This document shows positions 21,350-29,912 of a DNA stretch of 64,000 bases, in pieces. How positions within the stretch are numbered: the first letter of the stretch is position 1; each line of letters starts with the position of its first letter. Below the pieces are notes generated by a model, which did not search any database, was not told the origin of the DNA, and was given only the letters and a program-made list of their open reading frames with translations. The translations under genes were made by a program, and so were the position numbers. This DNA comes from Urbifossiella limnaea (GTDB lineage: Bacteria > Planctomycetota > Planctomycetia > Gemmatales > Gemmataceae): the NCBI RefSeq assembly GCF_007747215.1, contig NZ_CP036273.1:6184322-6248321 (forward strand), written 5' to 3'.

Positions 21350-22357
21350 TCACTCCGACACCGGGAGCTCGCCGCCGGCGCGCGTCGTCAGCGCCAGCAG
21401 CGCCGCCGCGCTCGTCGTGGCGCGCAGGAAGCGCACGCTGCCGTCGCCCAGCGCCACGTTCGCGCCGCCGGTGTGGTAGCTGCCGTAGGCGCCGAGCCGC
21501 GCCCGGTACTCGGCGGCGAGCTGGGTGCCGTTCACCGGCGGGGGCGGCGTCGGGATCACGATCGGCGGCACCGGCGGCGGCGGCGGCTCCCAGTGACTCG
21601 GGTTCGACATCCCCACCGCCGCCCCCGACGCGAACAAGCCGCCCGCCGCGGTCCCGGCCGGGGCGTCCGGCGTCGACGCCGGGAACGGGTACCACCGGGC
21701 GTACGCCGCCACCGGCTGCAGCGGCGGGGTCGGCGGCGGCATGATGATCCCCATCGACTGCGGCTGCTGGTACGTGTCCAGCCCCGCGTCGCCGACCTGC
21801 CGCTCGCCCAGCAGCAGCGTGTTCGAGGTGCCGTCGAGCACGTCGCCGAAGCGCACCCCGACCTGGTTCGCCGCCGGTTTCGACCCCGGGCCGGTGCTGT
21901 GGAACATGCCGTCGGTCTTCGTGTTGGCGTCGAGCGGGTACGGCCGCGTGCCGCCGTTGCCCCCGTAGGTCGTCAGCCCGGAAGCCGCGTCGAGCGTCGG
22001 GTGGCTCGGGCACAGCATCAGCGGCAGCGCCGTCTGCGCCAGCGCGCTGTTGTTGCCGGTGTTCACAAAGTCCCAGCGGCGGAACAGCGGGTCCTGCTCG
22101 ACATGCGGCAGGAGCTCGACGAACAGCGTGGTGTAGCGCGACCCGCCGGCCTCGCACGCGGTCGGGAAGCGGTCAGTCGTGCCGTGGTAGCCGTGGCAGG
22201 CCAGCGCGAGCTGCTTCAGCTGGCTGGTACACTTCGCGCGCGCCGCCGCCTCGCGGACCTTCTGCACCGCGGGGAGGAGCAGCCCGATCAGGATGGCGAT
22301 GATGGCGATCACCACCAGCAGTTCGATGAGCGTGAACGCGGCGCGGCGACCGGCCAT
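21350..22357 (-). CDS. DUF1559 domain pseudopilin-like protein
   Basis: A 335-residue protein with a type IV pilin-like N-terminus: a short leader then FTLIELLVVIAIIAILIGLL, with the conserved glutamate five residues after the cleavage site. The rest is the DUF1559 domain common in planctomycetes, including the C-terminal pattern GGANVALGDGSVRFLR. These proteins occur in dozens per genome and are processed by prepilin peptidase. They are thought to form surface or secretion-related structures, but the function is not established. A proline-rich stretch (PPPPPVPPIVIPTPPPP) lies in the middle. Start ATG at 22355-22357. Confidence 0.93.
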   Translation of the reverse strand: MAGRRAAFTLIELLVVIAIIAILIGLLLPAVQKVREAAARAKCTSQLKQLALACHGYHGTTDRFPTACEAGGSRYTTLFVELLPHVEQDPLFRRWDFVNTGNNSALAQTALPLMLCPSHPTLDAASGLTTYGGNGGTRPYPLDANTKTDGMFHSTGPGSKPAANQVGVRFGDVLDGTSNTLLLGERQVGDAGLDTYQQPQSMGIIMPPPTPPLQPVAAYARWYPFPASTPDAPAGTAAGGLFASGAAVGMSNPSHWEPPPPPVPPIVIPTPPPPVNGTQLAAEYRARLGAYGSYHTGGANVALGDGSVRFLRATTSAAALLALTTRAGGELPVSE

Positions 22358-22480: not shown

Positions 22481-23236
22481 TCAGGCGGTGGCGGCCGGCT
22501 TGCGGCGGAAGGCGCCGCGGCCGAGGAGGCAGCCGACGCCGGCCAGCGCCAGCAGCACGGCCGGCGGGGCCGGCACGGCGCCCGGCGGCGTGGTCGGCGG
22601 CGGGTACGACTTGGTGACGGTGGCCAGCACCTTGCTCCCGTTGCTGGAGCTGTAACTGCCGGCCGTGCGGAAGCGGGCGCCGATGCCGGCGCTGCCGTTC
22701 GTGCTCAGGTACGTCATCAGGGCGTCGGCGGTGATGTTCGCCCCCGGCCCGACCAGGTCGAATACGAACACGCCCGTCGCCCCCATGGCGATGCCGTTGA
22801 CCGACGCGCCGGACGTGTGCCAGCTGCTGCCGACGGCGGCGCCGATGTCGAACTGGCCGAACGAGCCCGTGTCGAACATCGAGCCGTTGCTGTAGTCGGC
22901 GTCGGCGAGCAGTTGCCAGTTCGACGTCGGCTTCGAGGCCAGGGAGCCGCTGGTGAGCGTGCCCGGCAGGCTGATGCCGAACGCGGTCAGGTACTGGCTG
23001 CCGCTGGTGTTGGTGAGCGTGATCCGGACGCTGGCGCTGGTCGGGCCGTTGTTGTCGACTTCGATCGAGCCGGTGTAGCTGCCGCCGGAGCCGAAGCTCG
23101 GGGCGATGCTCTTGATGTCCACCTTGCTGTCGTAGGCGACGAACGCTGCCCGGGCGGACCCGGGGCCGGCCAGGGCGGCGGCCCCGACCAGCAGTGCCGC
23201 GACAAGGCGGCGGGGAGTAATGAGGGCGGGGCGCAT
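22481..23236 (-). CDS. exported protein with PEP-CTERM-like sorting tail
   Basis: A 251-residue protein with an N-terminal signal peptide (LVAALLVGAAALAGPGSARA) and a C-terminal tripartite tail: VPAPPAVLLALAG, a hydrophobic stretch, then the basic end GRGAFRRKPAATA. This matches PEP-CTERM sorting tails with PAPP in place of PEP. Such tails are removed by an exosortase during export. The mature part is serine/glycine-rich with strand-like segments (VRITLTNTSGSQYL) and resembles exported matrix or adhesion proteins. The pseudopilin gene follows in the same direction 120 bases away. The exact role is unknown. Confidence 0.85.
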   Translation of the reverse strand: MRPALITPRRLVAALLVGAAALAGPGSARAAFVAYDSKVDIKSIAPSFGSGGSYTGSIEVDNNGPTSASVRITLTNTSGSQYLTAFGISLPGTLTSGSLASKPTSNWQLLADADYSNGSMFDTGSFGQFDIGAAVGSSWHTSGASVNGIAMGATGVFVFDLVGPGANITADALMTYLSTNGSAGIGARFRTAGSYSSSNGSKVLATVTKSYPPPTTPPGAVPAPPAVLLALAGVGCLLGRGAFRRKPAATA

Positions 23237-25855: not shown

Positions 25856-26296
25856 TCACTCCCCGGCGATGTCCGGCAGGCCCAGCTTCGTCAGGTACTC
25901 GCGCTCCTTCGCCCGCATCGCGGCGGCGCCGCGGTCGTCGGTGTCGGTGTACCCGCACAGGTGGAGGCACCCGTGGACGACGTAGAGCACCAACTCCGGG
26001 CCGACGGCGTGGCCGCGGTCGGCGGCGTACTCCGTCGCCACGCCGTAGCCGATGACCACGTCGCCCTCCAGCTTCTTCGCCCCGGCGGCGCTGTGCGGGA
26101 AGGTGAGCACGTCGGTCGGCTCGTCGTGGTTCAGGAACTGCTTGTTCAGCCGGTGGATGTGGGCGTCGTCCACGAACGCCAGCGTCACCGCGGCCTCGCG
26201 CACGCCCTCGCCCTCGAGCACGACGCGGGCGGCGTCCTTGAGGGCGGCGAAGTCGAGCGGGTACTCGTACGGGTTCGACACGCGGGCGCGGATCAT
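25856..26296 (-). CDS. ybeY: endoribonuclease YbeY, rRNA maturation
   Basis: A 146-residue metal-dependent endoribonuclease that matures 16S rRNA and takes part in ribosome quality control. The zinc motif is HGCLHLCGYTDTDD: two histidines are kept, and aspartate stands where many homologues have the third histidine (GYDH). I believe this aspartate variant is common in some phyla. Upstream are FVDDAHIHRLNKQFL and TDVLTFPHS, typical of the family. The ATG at 26294-26296 overlaps the stop of the phosphoesterase by four bases (ATGA), so I prefer it to the ATG nine bases further upstream. Confidence 0.93.
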   Translation of the reverse strand: MIRARVSNPYEYPLDFAALKDAARVVLEGEGVREAAVTLAFVDDAHIHRLNKQFLNHDEPTDVLTFPHSAAGAKKLEGDVVIGYGVATEYAADRGHAVGPELVLYVVHGCLHLCGYTDTDDRGAAAMRAKEREYLTKLGLPDIAGE

Positions 26297-26907
26297 GCGT
26301 CCCATTCTACGACCACCGGCCGGCCGCGCCCGTCGAAGCAGCTGGCGTTCACGAACGTGGTGCCGTCGATGTCGCTGCGCCCCGCGGCCTCGTGGATGTG
26401 GCCGAACACGTGAAGCCGCGGCCGTACCTCCATCACGCGGTCGAACAGGTCGCGGCAGCCGACCAGCTCACCGCGAATCGTGCGGTCCAGGATTCCCGCC
26501 GGCGGGCCGTGCGTGATGAGGATGTCGGTGCCGTCGGGAATCTTCGCCCACACGGCGGCGAGGGCGGGGCCGCGCTCCAGGTTGAACGCCCAGCCGCCGA
26601 ACCACGGCTGCCACGGGCTGCCGTACACCGTCAGTCCGCCGACCGTGACCGCGGTGTCTTCGAGGTAGTGGGCGTGGGTGAGGAGCGCCCGTGCGGCCCG
26701 CGGCTGTTCCTGAAACGCGAAGTCGTGGTTGCCGCAGATGACGACCTTGTGCGGGTGCGGGAGTTCCCCGAGCCAGCGGTCGAAGTCGGCGACGGTGTCG
26801 AGTTCGCCGCGGCGGGTGATGTCGCCGGCGTGGACGAGGAGGTCGCCGTCGGGCACGGTCAGGTCGCGGTGCCCCCCGTGGGTGTCGCTGACGCAGACGA
26901 TCCGCAT
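26293..26907 (-). CDS. metallophosphoesterase
   Basis: A 204-residue calcineurin-like phosphoesterase. The two-metal site motifs are all present: VSDTHGG at the N-terminus, HAGDITRRG, CGNHDF, and later THGPPAG and FGHIHEA. The short form resembles bacterial enzymes with phosphodiesterase activity of unknown in vivo substrate. It overlaps ybeY by four bases and follows the retropepsin-like gene by six bases, so it is part of the operon. The function within this operon is not evident. Confidence 0.93.
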   Translation of the reverse strand: MRIVCVSDTHGGHRDLTVPDGDLLVHAGDITRRGELDTVADFDRWLGELPHPHKVVICGNHDFAFQEQPRAARALLTHAHYLEDTAVTVGGLTVYGSPWQPWFGGWAFNLERGPALAAVWAKIPDGTDILITHGPPAGILDRTIRGELVGCRDLFDRVMEVRPRLHVFGHIHEAAGRSDIDGTTFVNASCFDGRGRPVVVEWDA

Positions 26908-26913
26908 GGGGGG

Positions 26914-27354
26914 TCAGTAGTCGAGGGTGAAGGTGAGCGACGGGCCGTCGAGGCGGAAGGCGCACAGCACGAGCAGGTCGCGGCCGATCAGAATGTCGCA
27001 GCCGAACGGGCCGAGCGGAACCTCCGTCAGCGGCAGGTCGGCCTTGTGGAAGTTGTCCGCGACACGCCCACTCGGGTGCGGGATGGTCAAGGAGGCGGCG
27101 TACTGGACCGCGTACCCGAGCCCGCCCGCGGCTGGCACGTTGATGTGAGTGAACCCGTAGTGGTCGAGCGGAAGCCGGGCGAGCACGTCCGGGTCGACGC
27201 ACGTCACCTGTGCCCCGGTGTCGACGAGGGCGAGCACGTCGATCGGCTGCGGTATCGGGCTGCCGGCGGCCCGGAGGCGGCGGACTTCCTTCGCGCTCAG
27301 TCCGATCCAAACCCGGAGCGCTGCCCCGTCGGCCTCGTTCCACGACCCGCTCAC
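26914..27354 (-). CDS. retropepsin-like aspartic protease
   Basis: A 146-residue single-domain aspartic protease candidate. The catalytic motif is D45-T-G-A in ALVDTGAQVTCVD, and the flap-distal psi-loop motif is CDILIGRDLL, as in retropepsins, which act as dimers. The start is a GTG whose bases overlap the TGA of the upstream gene (GTGA), so translation is coupled; longer versions of the frame would run through other genes. Standalone prokaryotic retropepsin-like proteins are little studied. Their pairing with a small upstream protein is discussed in the findings. Substrate unknown. Confidence 0.85.
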   Translation of the reverse strand: MSGSWNEADGAALRVWIGLSAKEVRRLRAAGSPIPQPIDVLALVDTGAQVTCVDPDVLARLPLDHYGFTHINVPAAGGLGYAVQYAASLTIPHPSGRVADNFHKADLPLTEVPLGPFGCDILIGRDLLVLCAFRLDGPSLTFTLDY

Positions 27355-27647
27355 GCCGGGCACGGGGCGGCCTCCGCGGCCGGGACGGTGCCGAACACCT
27401 CGGCGAGTGGGTCGAGCAGCTTCGCGTCGATCCGTTGAACCAGGAACGTGCCGGGCTCGAACTGGCCGAGCCCGTACTGAAGGCCGTCCCCGTAGGTGTC
27501 CCAGGTGCCGAACGTTTCGCTGCCGCGCACCACGACGTACCGGCCCTCGCCCCCGAGCTCCGCGAGCATCTCCGGGAGGGCGCGGTAGTACGTCCGCATC
27601 GGTTCCTCCATCCACGGGTGTCGCGCCAGCAGTTCGGGGATCGTCAT
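27351..27647 (-). CDS. small protein paired with retropepsin-like protease (DUF5678-like)
   Basis: A 98-residue protein with core pattern GRYVVVRGSETFGTWDTY, followed by DALQ-like helix GDGLQYGLGQF and EPGTFLVQRI. This resembles the small DUF5678-type proteins that bacteria often encode next to retropepsin-like proteases. The two genes overlap by four bases, which implies equal and coupled expression. It may be an inhibitor, a substrate or a targeting partner of the protease. The family name is from memory of the pattern. Confidence 0.75.
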   Translation of the reverse strand: MTIPELLARHPWMEEPMRTYYRALPEMLAELGGEGRYVVVRGSETFGTWDTYGDGLQYGLGQFEPGTFLVQRIDAKLLDPLAEVFGTVPAAEAAPCPA

Positions 27648-27674: not shown

Positions 27675-28223
27675 CTACCCGCCGGGCCGGCCGCGCACCA
27701 GCCGCGCGAACGTGCGGTACGCCCGCCACAACCCCGCCACCGAGCCCACCGCGCCGGCCGCGCACCACAGCGCCACCGTCGCGTCGCCGGCGCCCGCCGC
27801 CTGCCACGCCTTCGCGCCCAGCGCGGCCGTCAGCCCGAGGCCCATCGGCGTCAGGAAGCCGACCAGGAACGACCCCACGAGCCACGACGGAAGCACCGTC
27901 CGCCGGTTCGCCGACGGCACGCCGCGCCACAGCCGCCGGGCCAGCCACGCCAGCGCGAACCCGACCACGCCGTGACCCGCGCCGATGCCGAGCAGCAGCC
28001 CCGCCAGCGGCCACTCGTTCCGCCACGCGAAGTGCGCCGCGGCCACGGGCGTGAGCAACCCGGCGAGCAGGAAGTACGCCGCGACCGGGGTGAGAGCCGC
28101 GGCGCCCAACAGGCGCGGCCAGCGGCCGACGTCGGCGAAGTAGTCGGTGCCGCGGGCGAGCTTGCCGAGGTTGCTCGGCTCGTCGGCGTCGGGGCGGTCG
28201 AAGGGGATGAGGTCGGAGTCCAC
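27675..28223 (-). CDS. membrane protein of unknown function
   Basis: A 182-residue protein with a hydrophilic N-terminus (DSDLIPFDRPDADEPSNLG) and about four membrane helices, such as LLGAAALTPVAAYFLLAGLL and GIGAGHGVVGFALAWLA. The start is GTG at 28221-28223. It lies 14 bases after the GT87-like gene and 27 bases before the small DUF5678-like gene, within the same run. No family is recognised. Confidence 0.75.
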   Translation of the reverse strand: MDSDLIPFDRPDADEPSNLGKLARGTDYFADVGRWPRLLGAAALTPVAAYFLLAGLLTPVAAAHFAWRNEWPLAGLLLGIGAGHGVVGFALAWLARRLWRGVPSANRRTVLPSWLVGSFLVGFLTPMGLGLTAALGAKAWQAAGAGDATVALWCAAGAVGSVAGLWRAYRTFARLVRGRPGG

Positions 28224-28237
28224 GGCGTCACGGGGGG

Positions 28238-29572
28238 TCAGGCGGCGCGGCGCATCGGCAGCGGCTCCGCCGCCGCCTCCGGCCGCCGGGCGATCGCCGC
28301 CAGCCCCAGCGCCCACAGGCCGATCGTCGCGGCGGCGCCCAGCCCGCCCTCGCGGAGGCGGTCGAATACCGGGCCGGGGAACAGCGGCACCGCGGTGATG
28401 ATAGCCCACGCCGCCAGCGCCGTCGTGGTGCGGGCGTCCGCCGTCAGTGCCCCCGGCCGCGCCGCCAGCCCGCGGAGCCACAGCCCGCACGCCAGCGGCA
28501 GCACGAAGGCGTAGTAGTGCATGTGCGACACCGGCGTCATCAACATCATCACCGCGCACAGGCCACCGAACAGCACCAGCTGGTCGGCCGGCGCCGGCCC
28601 CGCACGGCGGAACCCGACCCACGCCGTCACCAGCAGCATCGTGCCGCTCACGGCCAGGTGCGCCACTTTGGCCGCCCGGCCCGGCTGGTCCGGCCGCGCC
28701 GCCGGGTCGGGGTGCTGCCAGGCGTGGACCGCCGCCAGCACCGACTGGCTGTCCGTCGCCGCCGCCCCGTGCAGTTCCTTCGCCCGCGTCTGGTCGCCGT
28801 GCTCGTCGAACACCGGCCCCAGCACCACCCGCACGAGCTTCGCGTTCACGTCCACCGCGCCCGGCACGCCCCACACCGCCGCCGGCACGACGCCGATGAG
28901 CACCACCACCGCGGCCGCGGCGCCGACCAGCGCCCGCCAGTCGCGGCGGACCAGCGGGTACACCACCAGCAGCGTCGGGATGATCTTCAGGACCGCGGCC
29001 GCGGCCAGCCACGCGCCGCCGGCGTAGCGGCGGTTCCGCACCACGGCGGCGAACCCGGCCGCCCACAGCGCCACCACCATCGGGTTGACCTGCCCGCGGC
29101 CGAGGGTGTGACCCAGCCCGCCGAGGCACACGTACACCGGCACCAGCCGGGCGTACCACCACCGCCGCGAGCCACGCTCCAGTGTCGGCAGCACCACCCC
29201 GGCGAACGTGTGGACCGCGTAGCCGATCGCCAGCAGGCTCAGCGCGTACCACACGCCGACGGACACGGCGTAGGGCACGTACCCGGCTTGCGGCAGGAAC
29301 TTGTACGGGTGGGCCAGCGGCACCATCGCCACGGCGAACGGCGGCGGGTAGGCGTAGTGCCAGCCGTTGTCGTCGGTCACGTCGTAAATGTCGAGGCCGG
29401 CGCGGACGGCCCAGCCGGCGCGGGCGAAGACGCCGAAGTCGGTCTTCGGCGTGGTCTGGAACGCCGAGCGGATTTCGGTGAGCACCCCGAACGCGACCAG
29501 CAGCAGCGCGAGCAGGGCGAGGCCGACGCGCTCCCAGGTCCGGAGGCGGTCGGAGGTGGGGGACGGTGTCAT
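28238..29572 (-). CDS. GT87-like integral membrane glycosyltransferase (DUF2029)
   Basis: A 444-residue multi-pass membrane protein of the DUF2029/GT87 type, related to polyprenyl-phosphate mannosyltransferases. The first periplasmic loop holds the family pattern TDFGVFARAGWAVRAGLDIYD and AYPPPFA, where the aspartate is likely catalytic. About ten membrane helices follow. Such enzymes transfer a sugar from a lipid carrier to glycolipids or proteins outside the membrane. The ATG at 29570-29572 is chosen; GGAGG lies a little upstream. It is the first gene of the minus-strand operon. Confidence 0.85.
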   Translation of the reverse strand: MTPSPTSDRLRTWERVGLALLALLLVAFGVLTEIRSAFQTTPKTDFGVFARAGWAVRAGLDIYDVTDDNGWHYAYPPPFAVAMVPLAHPYKFLPQAGYVPYAVSVGVWYALSLLAIGYAVHTFAGVVLPTLERGSRRWWYARLVPVYVCLGGLGHTLGRGQVNPMVVALWAAGFAAVVRNRRYAGGAWLAAAAVLKIIPTLLVVYPLVRRDWRALVGAAAAVVVLIGVVPAAVWGVPGAVDVNAKLVRVVLGPVFDEHGDQTRAKELHGAAATDSQSVLAAVHAWQHPDPAARPDQPGRAAKVAHLAVSGTMLLVTAWVGFRRAGPAPADQLVLFGGLCAVMMLMTPVSHMHYYAFVLPLACGLWLRGLAARPGALTADARTTTALAAWAIITAVPLFPGPVFDRLREGGLGAAATIGLWALGLAAIARRPEAAAEPLPMRRAA

Positions 29573-29912
29573 TCCGGGGTTATCGGCAATTCCGCCGGCG
29601 GACGCGAGCCCAGCTGTACTCGGTGGCACGAGTGTCGGGCGGGTTCCTTCATGGTGCGGCGCGTGCGCCCCCTAACTCGCACGATGTGAGCCCGATTCAC
29701 GATGGCACATTGGAGCGACGCCGGCGGCGTGGAACGTTGCGGCGCCGTGGGTTACGACGAACGGGGGTGCGGCGCCGTCCCACGACCATACGGCGGCGGT
29801 CAACCCGGCGCGCGAGCGGAAGTTGTGGCGACTGCTCGACGCGATCCGCTGGGAGACGTAAGTGGCGGTGCCGTTCGCGGCTCCAAGGTGGCCAACGCTC
29901 CGGCCGGTTGCG
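29573..29912. other. 340-bp intergenic region, no confident gene
   Basis: This is upstream of the GT87-like operon and should hold its promoter. Open frames are present on both strands, but they look like random high-GC translation without domains or a ribosome site. Base composition is slightly more mixed than in flanking genes. I see no RNA gene or strong palindrome. Confidence 0.4.

Follow-up and report, generated by a model that had tools for sequence, protein, structure and literature searches.

Overlapping genes for a retropepsin-like protease and a small DUF5678-like protein form a recurrent pair in Gemmatales

In Urbifossiella limnaea, the gene for a retropepsin-like aspartic protease overlaps a small gene directly upstream of it, and this two-gene arrangement recurs across the order Gemmatales far beyond chance. 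We propose that the protease is a cytosolic, predicted homodimeric retropepsin under the control of its co-translated partner, which most likely restrains it. This reading we regard as plausible if a little short of probable. Few bacterial retropepsins have an established role. To our knowledge, no natural small-protein partner was previously known for a bacterial enzyme of the HIV-protease type, and the module would be the first. A dedicated partner gives DUF5678 a testable job, and the module poses a concrete question, namely whether the protease is silenced, activated, or fed by its partner.

The gene pair and its two products

The window is the whole 64,000-nt stretch of DNA that was analyzed and is part of a single 7.8-Mb contig. 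On its minus strand, the small partner gene occupies 27351..27647 (98 aa, ATG start), and the protease gene occupies 26914..27363 (149 aa from our preferred start, GTG 27361-27363), giving a 13-nt overlap at 27351..27363. The sequence-only reading had placed the protease start at GTG 27352-27354, which yields 146 aa and a 4-nt overlap, and had described this codon as overlapping the stop of a DUF5678-like gene. The described overlap does exist, as the GTG and the small-gene TGA (27351-27353) form GTGA on the minus strand. The true start is nevertheless likely to be GTG 27361-27363, because the protein starts of homologues align there: the protease read from this codon begins MPGVSG..., and the consensus in the family alignment is MPxL.... 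An offset of -13 was found in 16 of 35 aligned modules, with -1 in four, -28 in three, -4 and -14 in two each, and every other offset once; in 30 of the 35, the two genes share one base or more. These module starts were picked by a script favoring ATG and nearness to the model start, and single cases may be off.

The minus-strand gene order is an ORF at 28238-29629, an ORF at about 27675-28235, the small gene, the protease, an ORF at 26293-26907, and two further ORFs. From a look at the sequences, we take the first to be GT87-like, the second membrane-protein-like, and the ORF after the protease metallophosphoesterase-like; beyond it lie what are presumably YbeY and then a rhodanese-like ORF. 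Since the gaps flanking the pair are short, it may be transcribed together with its neighbors. No special RNA structure, promoter, or terminator was found at the pair. Elsewhere in the window, two adjoining minus-strand ORFs at 21350-22357 and 22481-23236 combine a prepilin-type N terminus in one with a PEP-CTERM-like C terminus in the other (VPAPPAVLLALAGVGCLLGRGAFRRK).

The protease carries the catalytic motif LVDTGA, which follows the pattern of two hydrophobic residues, Asp, Thr or Ser, and Gly. The predicted catalytic Asp codon, computed from the translation, lies at 27220..27222 (minus strand) and is residue 45 from GTG 27354 or 48 from GTG 27363. In the former numbering, D45, T46, and G47 are nearly invariant in two alignments (A4 and A6). 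Among 40 aligned proteins, the Asp, Thr, and Gly are nearly invariant, as are G124 and D126 in a second motif near the C terminus, ILIGRD (hydrophobic-Gly-Arg-Asp/Asn). The match to PF00077 (RVP; E 5.8e-4, 20.5 bits) narrowly misses the Pfam gathering cut-off of 20.7 bits, and the retropepsin assignment therefore relies on fold and motifs. An AlphaFold2 model built from 39 sequences reached a pLDDT of 95.3 and a pTM of 0.87, and all 11 of its Foldseek matches at E<=0.001 were retropepsins, including the proteases of FIV, Rous sarcoma virus, and avian myeloblastosis virus as well as Rickettsia APRc. Retroviral and Ddi1 proteases were likewise among the matches when PDB sequences were searched with a profile. 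By motifs and predicted fold, then, the window protease is a single-lobe clan AA retropepsin, and the earlier description of a dimeric viral-type protease is supported as far as the fold goes. No signal peptide or membrane segment was evident in it by eye, and it is single copy in the U. limnaea genome, where the sole other match had an E-value of 0.35. APRc (PDB 5c9f) likewise has a bacterial single-lobe retropepsin fold, with about 15% identity to the window protease; we know of no small partner gene for APRc.

The family of the small protein is less direct. The window protein itself had no Pfam match up to E 10, DUF5678 (PF18929) included. Among its homologues, 15 of 55 matched DUF5678 at E<=0.1 (9 of 16 at E<=1 in an earlier, smaller set), and two distant module members from other classes, L238 and L242, scored 35.7 and 37.4 bits against a PF18929 cut-off of 23.2. 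A 54-row profile of the small family aligned with a nine-row alignment including both of these at 99.7% probability. The label DUF5678-like given by the sequence-only reading thus holds through homologues only, and the window protein is not a member by score. Its AlphaFold2 model (54 sequences, pLDDT 87.8) has the predicted order helix-helix-strand-strand-helix-strand-helix. Foldseek returned nothing for this model at E<=0.001, VIA-align gave a best Z of 2.6 and no reliable fold match, and a sequence search found no solved relative. No DNA-binding Pfam domain recurs among the 55 small proteins, in one of which there is a single weak TetR_C_33 match (2.2e-4).

The C-terminal tail of the small-protein model is of low confidence (its last block averages a pLDDT of 57). 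Such a tail, together with dedicated pairing and coupled synthesis, might be expected if the small protein were a substrate whose cleavage product, released by the retropepsin, acts as a signal. We consider this very unlikely. The last residues of the small proteins (CPA, CPS, or CQS) come from the start of the protease gene (ATGCC or GTGCC) being read in the other frame; their conservation is dictated by that overlapping start, is not independent, and gives no sign of a cleavage site. A conserved linker was not seen either.

Pairing across genomes and coevolution

We surveyed 102 genomes of the order and counted matches at E<1e-10 as strong, obtaining 60 for the small gene and 52 for the protease. 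The small gene lay upstream of 47 of the 52 proteases, and a protease lay downstream of 46 of the 60 small genes. The small-gene profile was built on 16 seed genes found beside proteases, and these seeds make up 17 of the 60 matches, all paired; among the other 43, a protease follows in 29. Pairing was less frequent in the weaker range from 1e-10 to 1e-3 (13 of 23 and 19 of 73), as expected if many of these matches are other proteases. In the same genomes, PF13650, another aspartic-protease family taken as a control, had the small gene in the 1 kb upstream at 0 of the first 100 places among the matches listed (Fisher p 5.5e-34 against 47 of 52).

Across a phylum sample of 392 genomes, there were 16 small-gene matches in 14 genomes, of which 13 were followed by a retropepsin (a partial one in L243) and three were not. 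Leaving out six that are the window or seed genes, 7 of 10 were paired. An earlier search of the phylum, made with the protease, had added six further matches, five of them paired. The linkage also persists in other classes and in a plasmid-borne copy. An accidental adjacency of two unrelated genes, to which we assign a negligible chance, is refuted by the order, phylum, and control surveys together, and the earlier proposal of a dedicated small partner, for which a co-occurrence survey had been suggested, came through that survey well.

The distribution is patchy and multi-copy. Full-length pairs occur in 24 of the 102 genomes, with up to four per genome, and a match to the window protease occurred in only one (G005) of five same-genus relatives. 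In the sister genome G001, neighboring genes are kept and the pair is absent, with homology stopping at the start of the metallophosphoesterase-like ORF; a clean empty site was not demonstrable in G001, where the other flank is not conserved. The proteases L084, L085, and L217 belong to a clade of four from a single genus, all of the 132-aa type. Upstream of L084 and L217 at least is another conserved small basic protein, MARDxKPxKAxKxKY...DGDRRHRxGASAKQAIKNK.

The module appears to consist of two genes. The pair was common to 21 of 22 neighborhoods compared, and no third conserved gene was found in these 22, where other gene clusters were limited to three to five loci each; a three-gene system was rejected on that ground. 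Natural fusion of the two proteins was likewise rejected, as a scan of 6827 frames contained no partner-protease fusion. Only the small domain was found joined to itself, at one locus where its tandem copies share an open frame directly ahead of a protease (L006:1950-2498, the same locus as L036, L064, and L172).

The protein trees of the two families agree (r 0.52) after trimming the 16 residues next to the overlap from each protein. None of 5000 permutations reached this value (maximum 0.23), and swapping partners within genomes reached it in 63 of 19972 cases. This agreement adds to the case for a dedicated partner. Both genes are under purifying selection, with dN below dS for each in 14 of 14 close pairs and a ratio of roughly 0.07-0.4 where dS is finite.

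Decay of the protease gene and modes of control

The 60 small-gene matches in the order are followed by a full protease in 33 cases (two of which are both domains of one gene), by a broken protease or remnant in 16, by a contig end in two, and by none in nine. Fourteen of the broken cases were called by script; the other two, G048 and G041:C18, are frameshifted near the end and had been filed by the script as intact. Among the nine without a protease, G003 shows a short remnant by eye. Small genes without a detectable adjoining protease were noted at L096, L098, L099, L100, L102, L103, L106, and L108. Conversely, 37 proteases were matched over at least 130 codons, and 33 of these are paired, 32 with a small domain in one frame and one, in G066, with a small gene truncated where the contig begins. 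The four without the small partner, L084, L085, and L217 among them, form one clade in one genus. No broken small gene was seen beside any of the 33 full-length paired proteases, against 16 cases of the reverse, and if breaks fell by length, none of the 16 falling in the small gene would have p=0.0004.

This asymmetry would be consistent with a cost of carrying the protease when its partner is missing. It could alternatively arise from a more dispensable protease, or from false frameshifts in draft assemblies.

In the mechanism that we favor, the first gene would supply a small alpha/beta protein of the DUF5678-like family, and the second, read from the overlapping start codon, a soluble cytosolic retropepsin that would act as a homodimer with one Asp contributed per chain. 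The overlap probably couples translation, so that partner would be present whenever protease is made. The partner would bind the protease and restrain it until a trigger releases it, and the module would behave like a toxin-antitoxin or guarded-protease system. The 16 of 60 small-gene matches with a broken protease, with the reverse unseen, speak for restraint, as does gene order, since the partner is upstream of the effector in most type II toxin-antitoxin operons. Several observations weigh against it: the four-place protease clade without such a partner, the nine small-gene matches without an adjoining protease, and the loss of the catalytic Asp, with the frame kept, in 3 of 39 aligned proteases (to Asn in L012, His in L014, and Tyr in L039). 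Nor did a DNA-binding Pfam domain recur among the partners; no fusion was found in the 6827 frames, and the window pair has no PADLOC match.

The suggestion of a toxin-antitoxin-like module by the sequence-only reading can accordingly be kept in part. The likeness to type II systems lies in two small, adjacent, codirectional, and overlapping genes with the partner first, in their strict limitation to two, in the patchy and multi-copy spread, and in an effector, here the protease, that decays first. The differences are that the putative effector is a protease and that a DNA-binding antitoxin domain was not seen in the small proteins.

The small protein could instead bind the retropepsin as an activator, chaperone, or substrate adaptor, bringing it substrates or stabilizing its dimer, in which case the pair would carry out ordinary regulated proteolysis. 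The linkage and coevolution would serve this explanation equally well, and so would purifying selection on both genes. There is also precedent in RimB (of RimABK) and RloA of Pseudomonas, retropepsin-like aspartic proteases encoded in operons with functional partners (PMC11957791, PMC12239564). Those enzymes are accompanied by ATP-grasp, phosphodiesterase, and transglutaminase-like proteins, where the present module has a small DUF5678-like protein, and RloA has a signal peptide; the window module, for its part, has no recurring third gene. If the protease depended on the partner, however, genomes that had lost only the partner should suffer no cost and hence be visible, yet none was seen against 16 of the reverse, and small genes survive without a protease in nine places. 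We regard activation as possible but rather doubtful.

A second subfamily and relation to known systems

The arrangement also holds for a second protease subfamily, in which 10 of 11 places have a small gene immediately upstream, with overlaps of 4 nt (six), 14 nt (two), and 1 nt (one), and a gap of 1 nt (one); the eleventh place, L226, is part of a 772-aa open frame. Three more pairs of this subfamily occur in the order, with ATGA overlaps. The loci of this subfamily are L115, L119, L127, L218-L225, and L227, where the upstream small protein reads EWVLLEDPET...HSKDRDEVYRKA and the overlap is mostly of the ATGA type. Together with its small gene, the second subfamily constitutes a separate module family. 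Alignment of the small proteins of the two subfamilies by hhalign gave probabilities of 2-6%, or 46% via distant members, and in DUF5678 scans L115, L119, and several of L220-L227 fell below the cut-off or had no match. Homology between the two kinds of small gene is not shown by these comparisons and is only suggested.

A broader reading would be a widespread conflict or toxin-antitoxin class, in which a retroviral-fold protease is silenced by a DUF5678-family inhibitor from the same overlapping transcript, and several subfamilies, SEC-C-tailed ones included, each have their own partner lineage. We put this forward with reserve, as possible and somewhat improbable.

Among mobile elements, one of 72,556 plasmid records carries the pair, namely Methylobacterium radiotolerans plasmid pNYY1_5, in which the ATG of the protease and the TGA of the small gene form ATGA. 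The two L094 proteins had no match among plasmids. Carriage by phages was considered and rejected: a phage search gave no match, and neither did a pair of single-protein scans of viral contigs, which are sensitive to close relatives only.

Component B of the PADLOC candidate system PDC-M08 is represented by retropepsin-type models, and the PDC systems are described as candidates from a guilt-by-embedding approach (PMC12988326). The pair could be part of the anti-phage defense repertoire in this form, which would be compatible with restraint or with activation, and which we judge unlikely. The PDC-M08B models match second-subfamily proteases (best 1.4e-12) and, weakly, 13 of 40 members of the window protease's family (best 1.4e-5), and the patchy, multi-copy distribution with its one plasmid copy would suit a defense role. 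However, neither the window protease nor its partner has a PADLOC match at E<=0.1, no small protein matches any PDC-M08 model, and PDC-M08B also matches larger aspartic proteases that are unpaired. The window copy, moreover, lies among housekeeping-type genes, and no further gene regularly accompanies the pairs. The overlap of PDC-M08B with the module is limited to the protease side.

The idea that the module is undescribed holds for the pair in the literature searched, which left subscription papers and bioRxiv mostly outside its coverage; it is qualified by the PADLOC listing of retropepsin-type proteins. Searches of that literature for retropepsins or clan AA aspartic proteases with antitoxin or toxin-antitoxin, and for PDC-M08, found nothing, and DUF5678 appeared in a single unrelated paper out of 5.39 million. 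As a minor observation, several partnered retropepsins end in a SEC-C zinc-binding motif, found by scan in L094 and by eye in L239 and L241.
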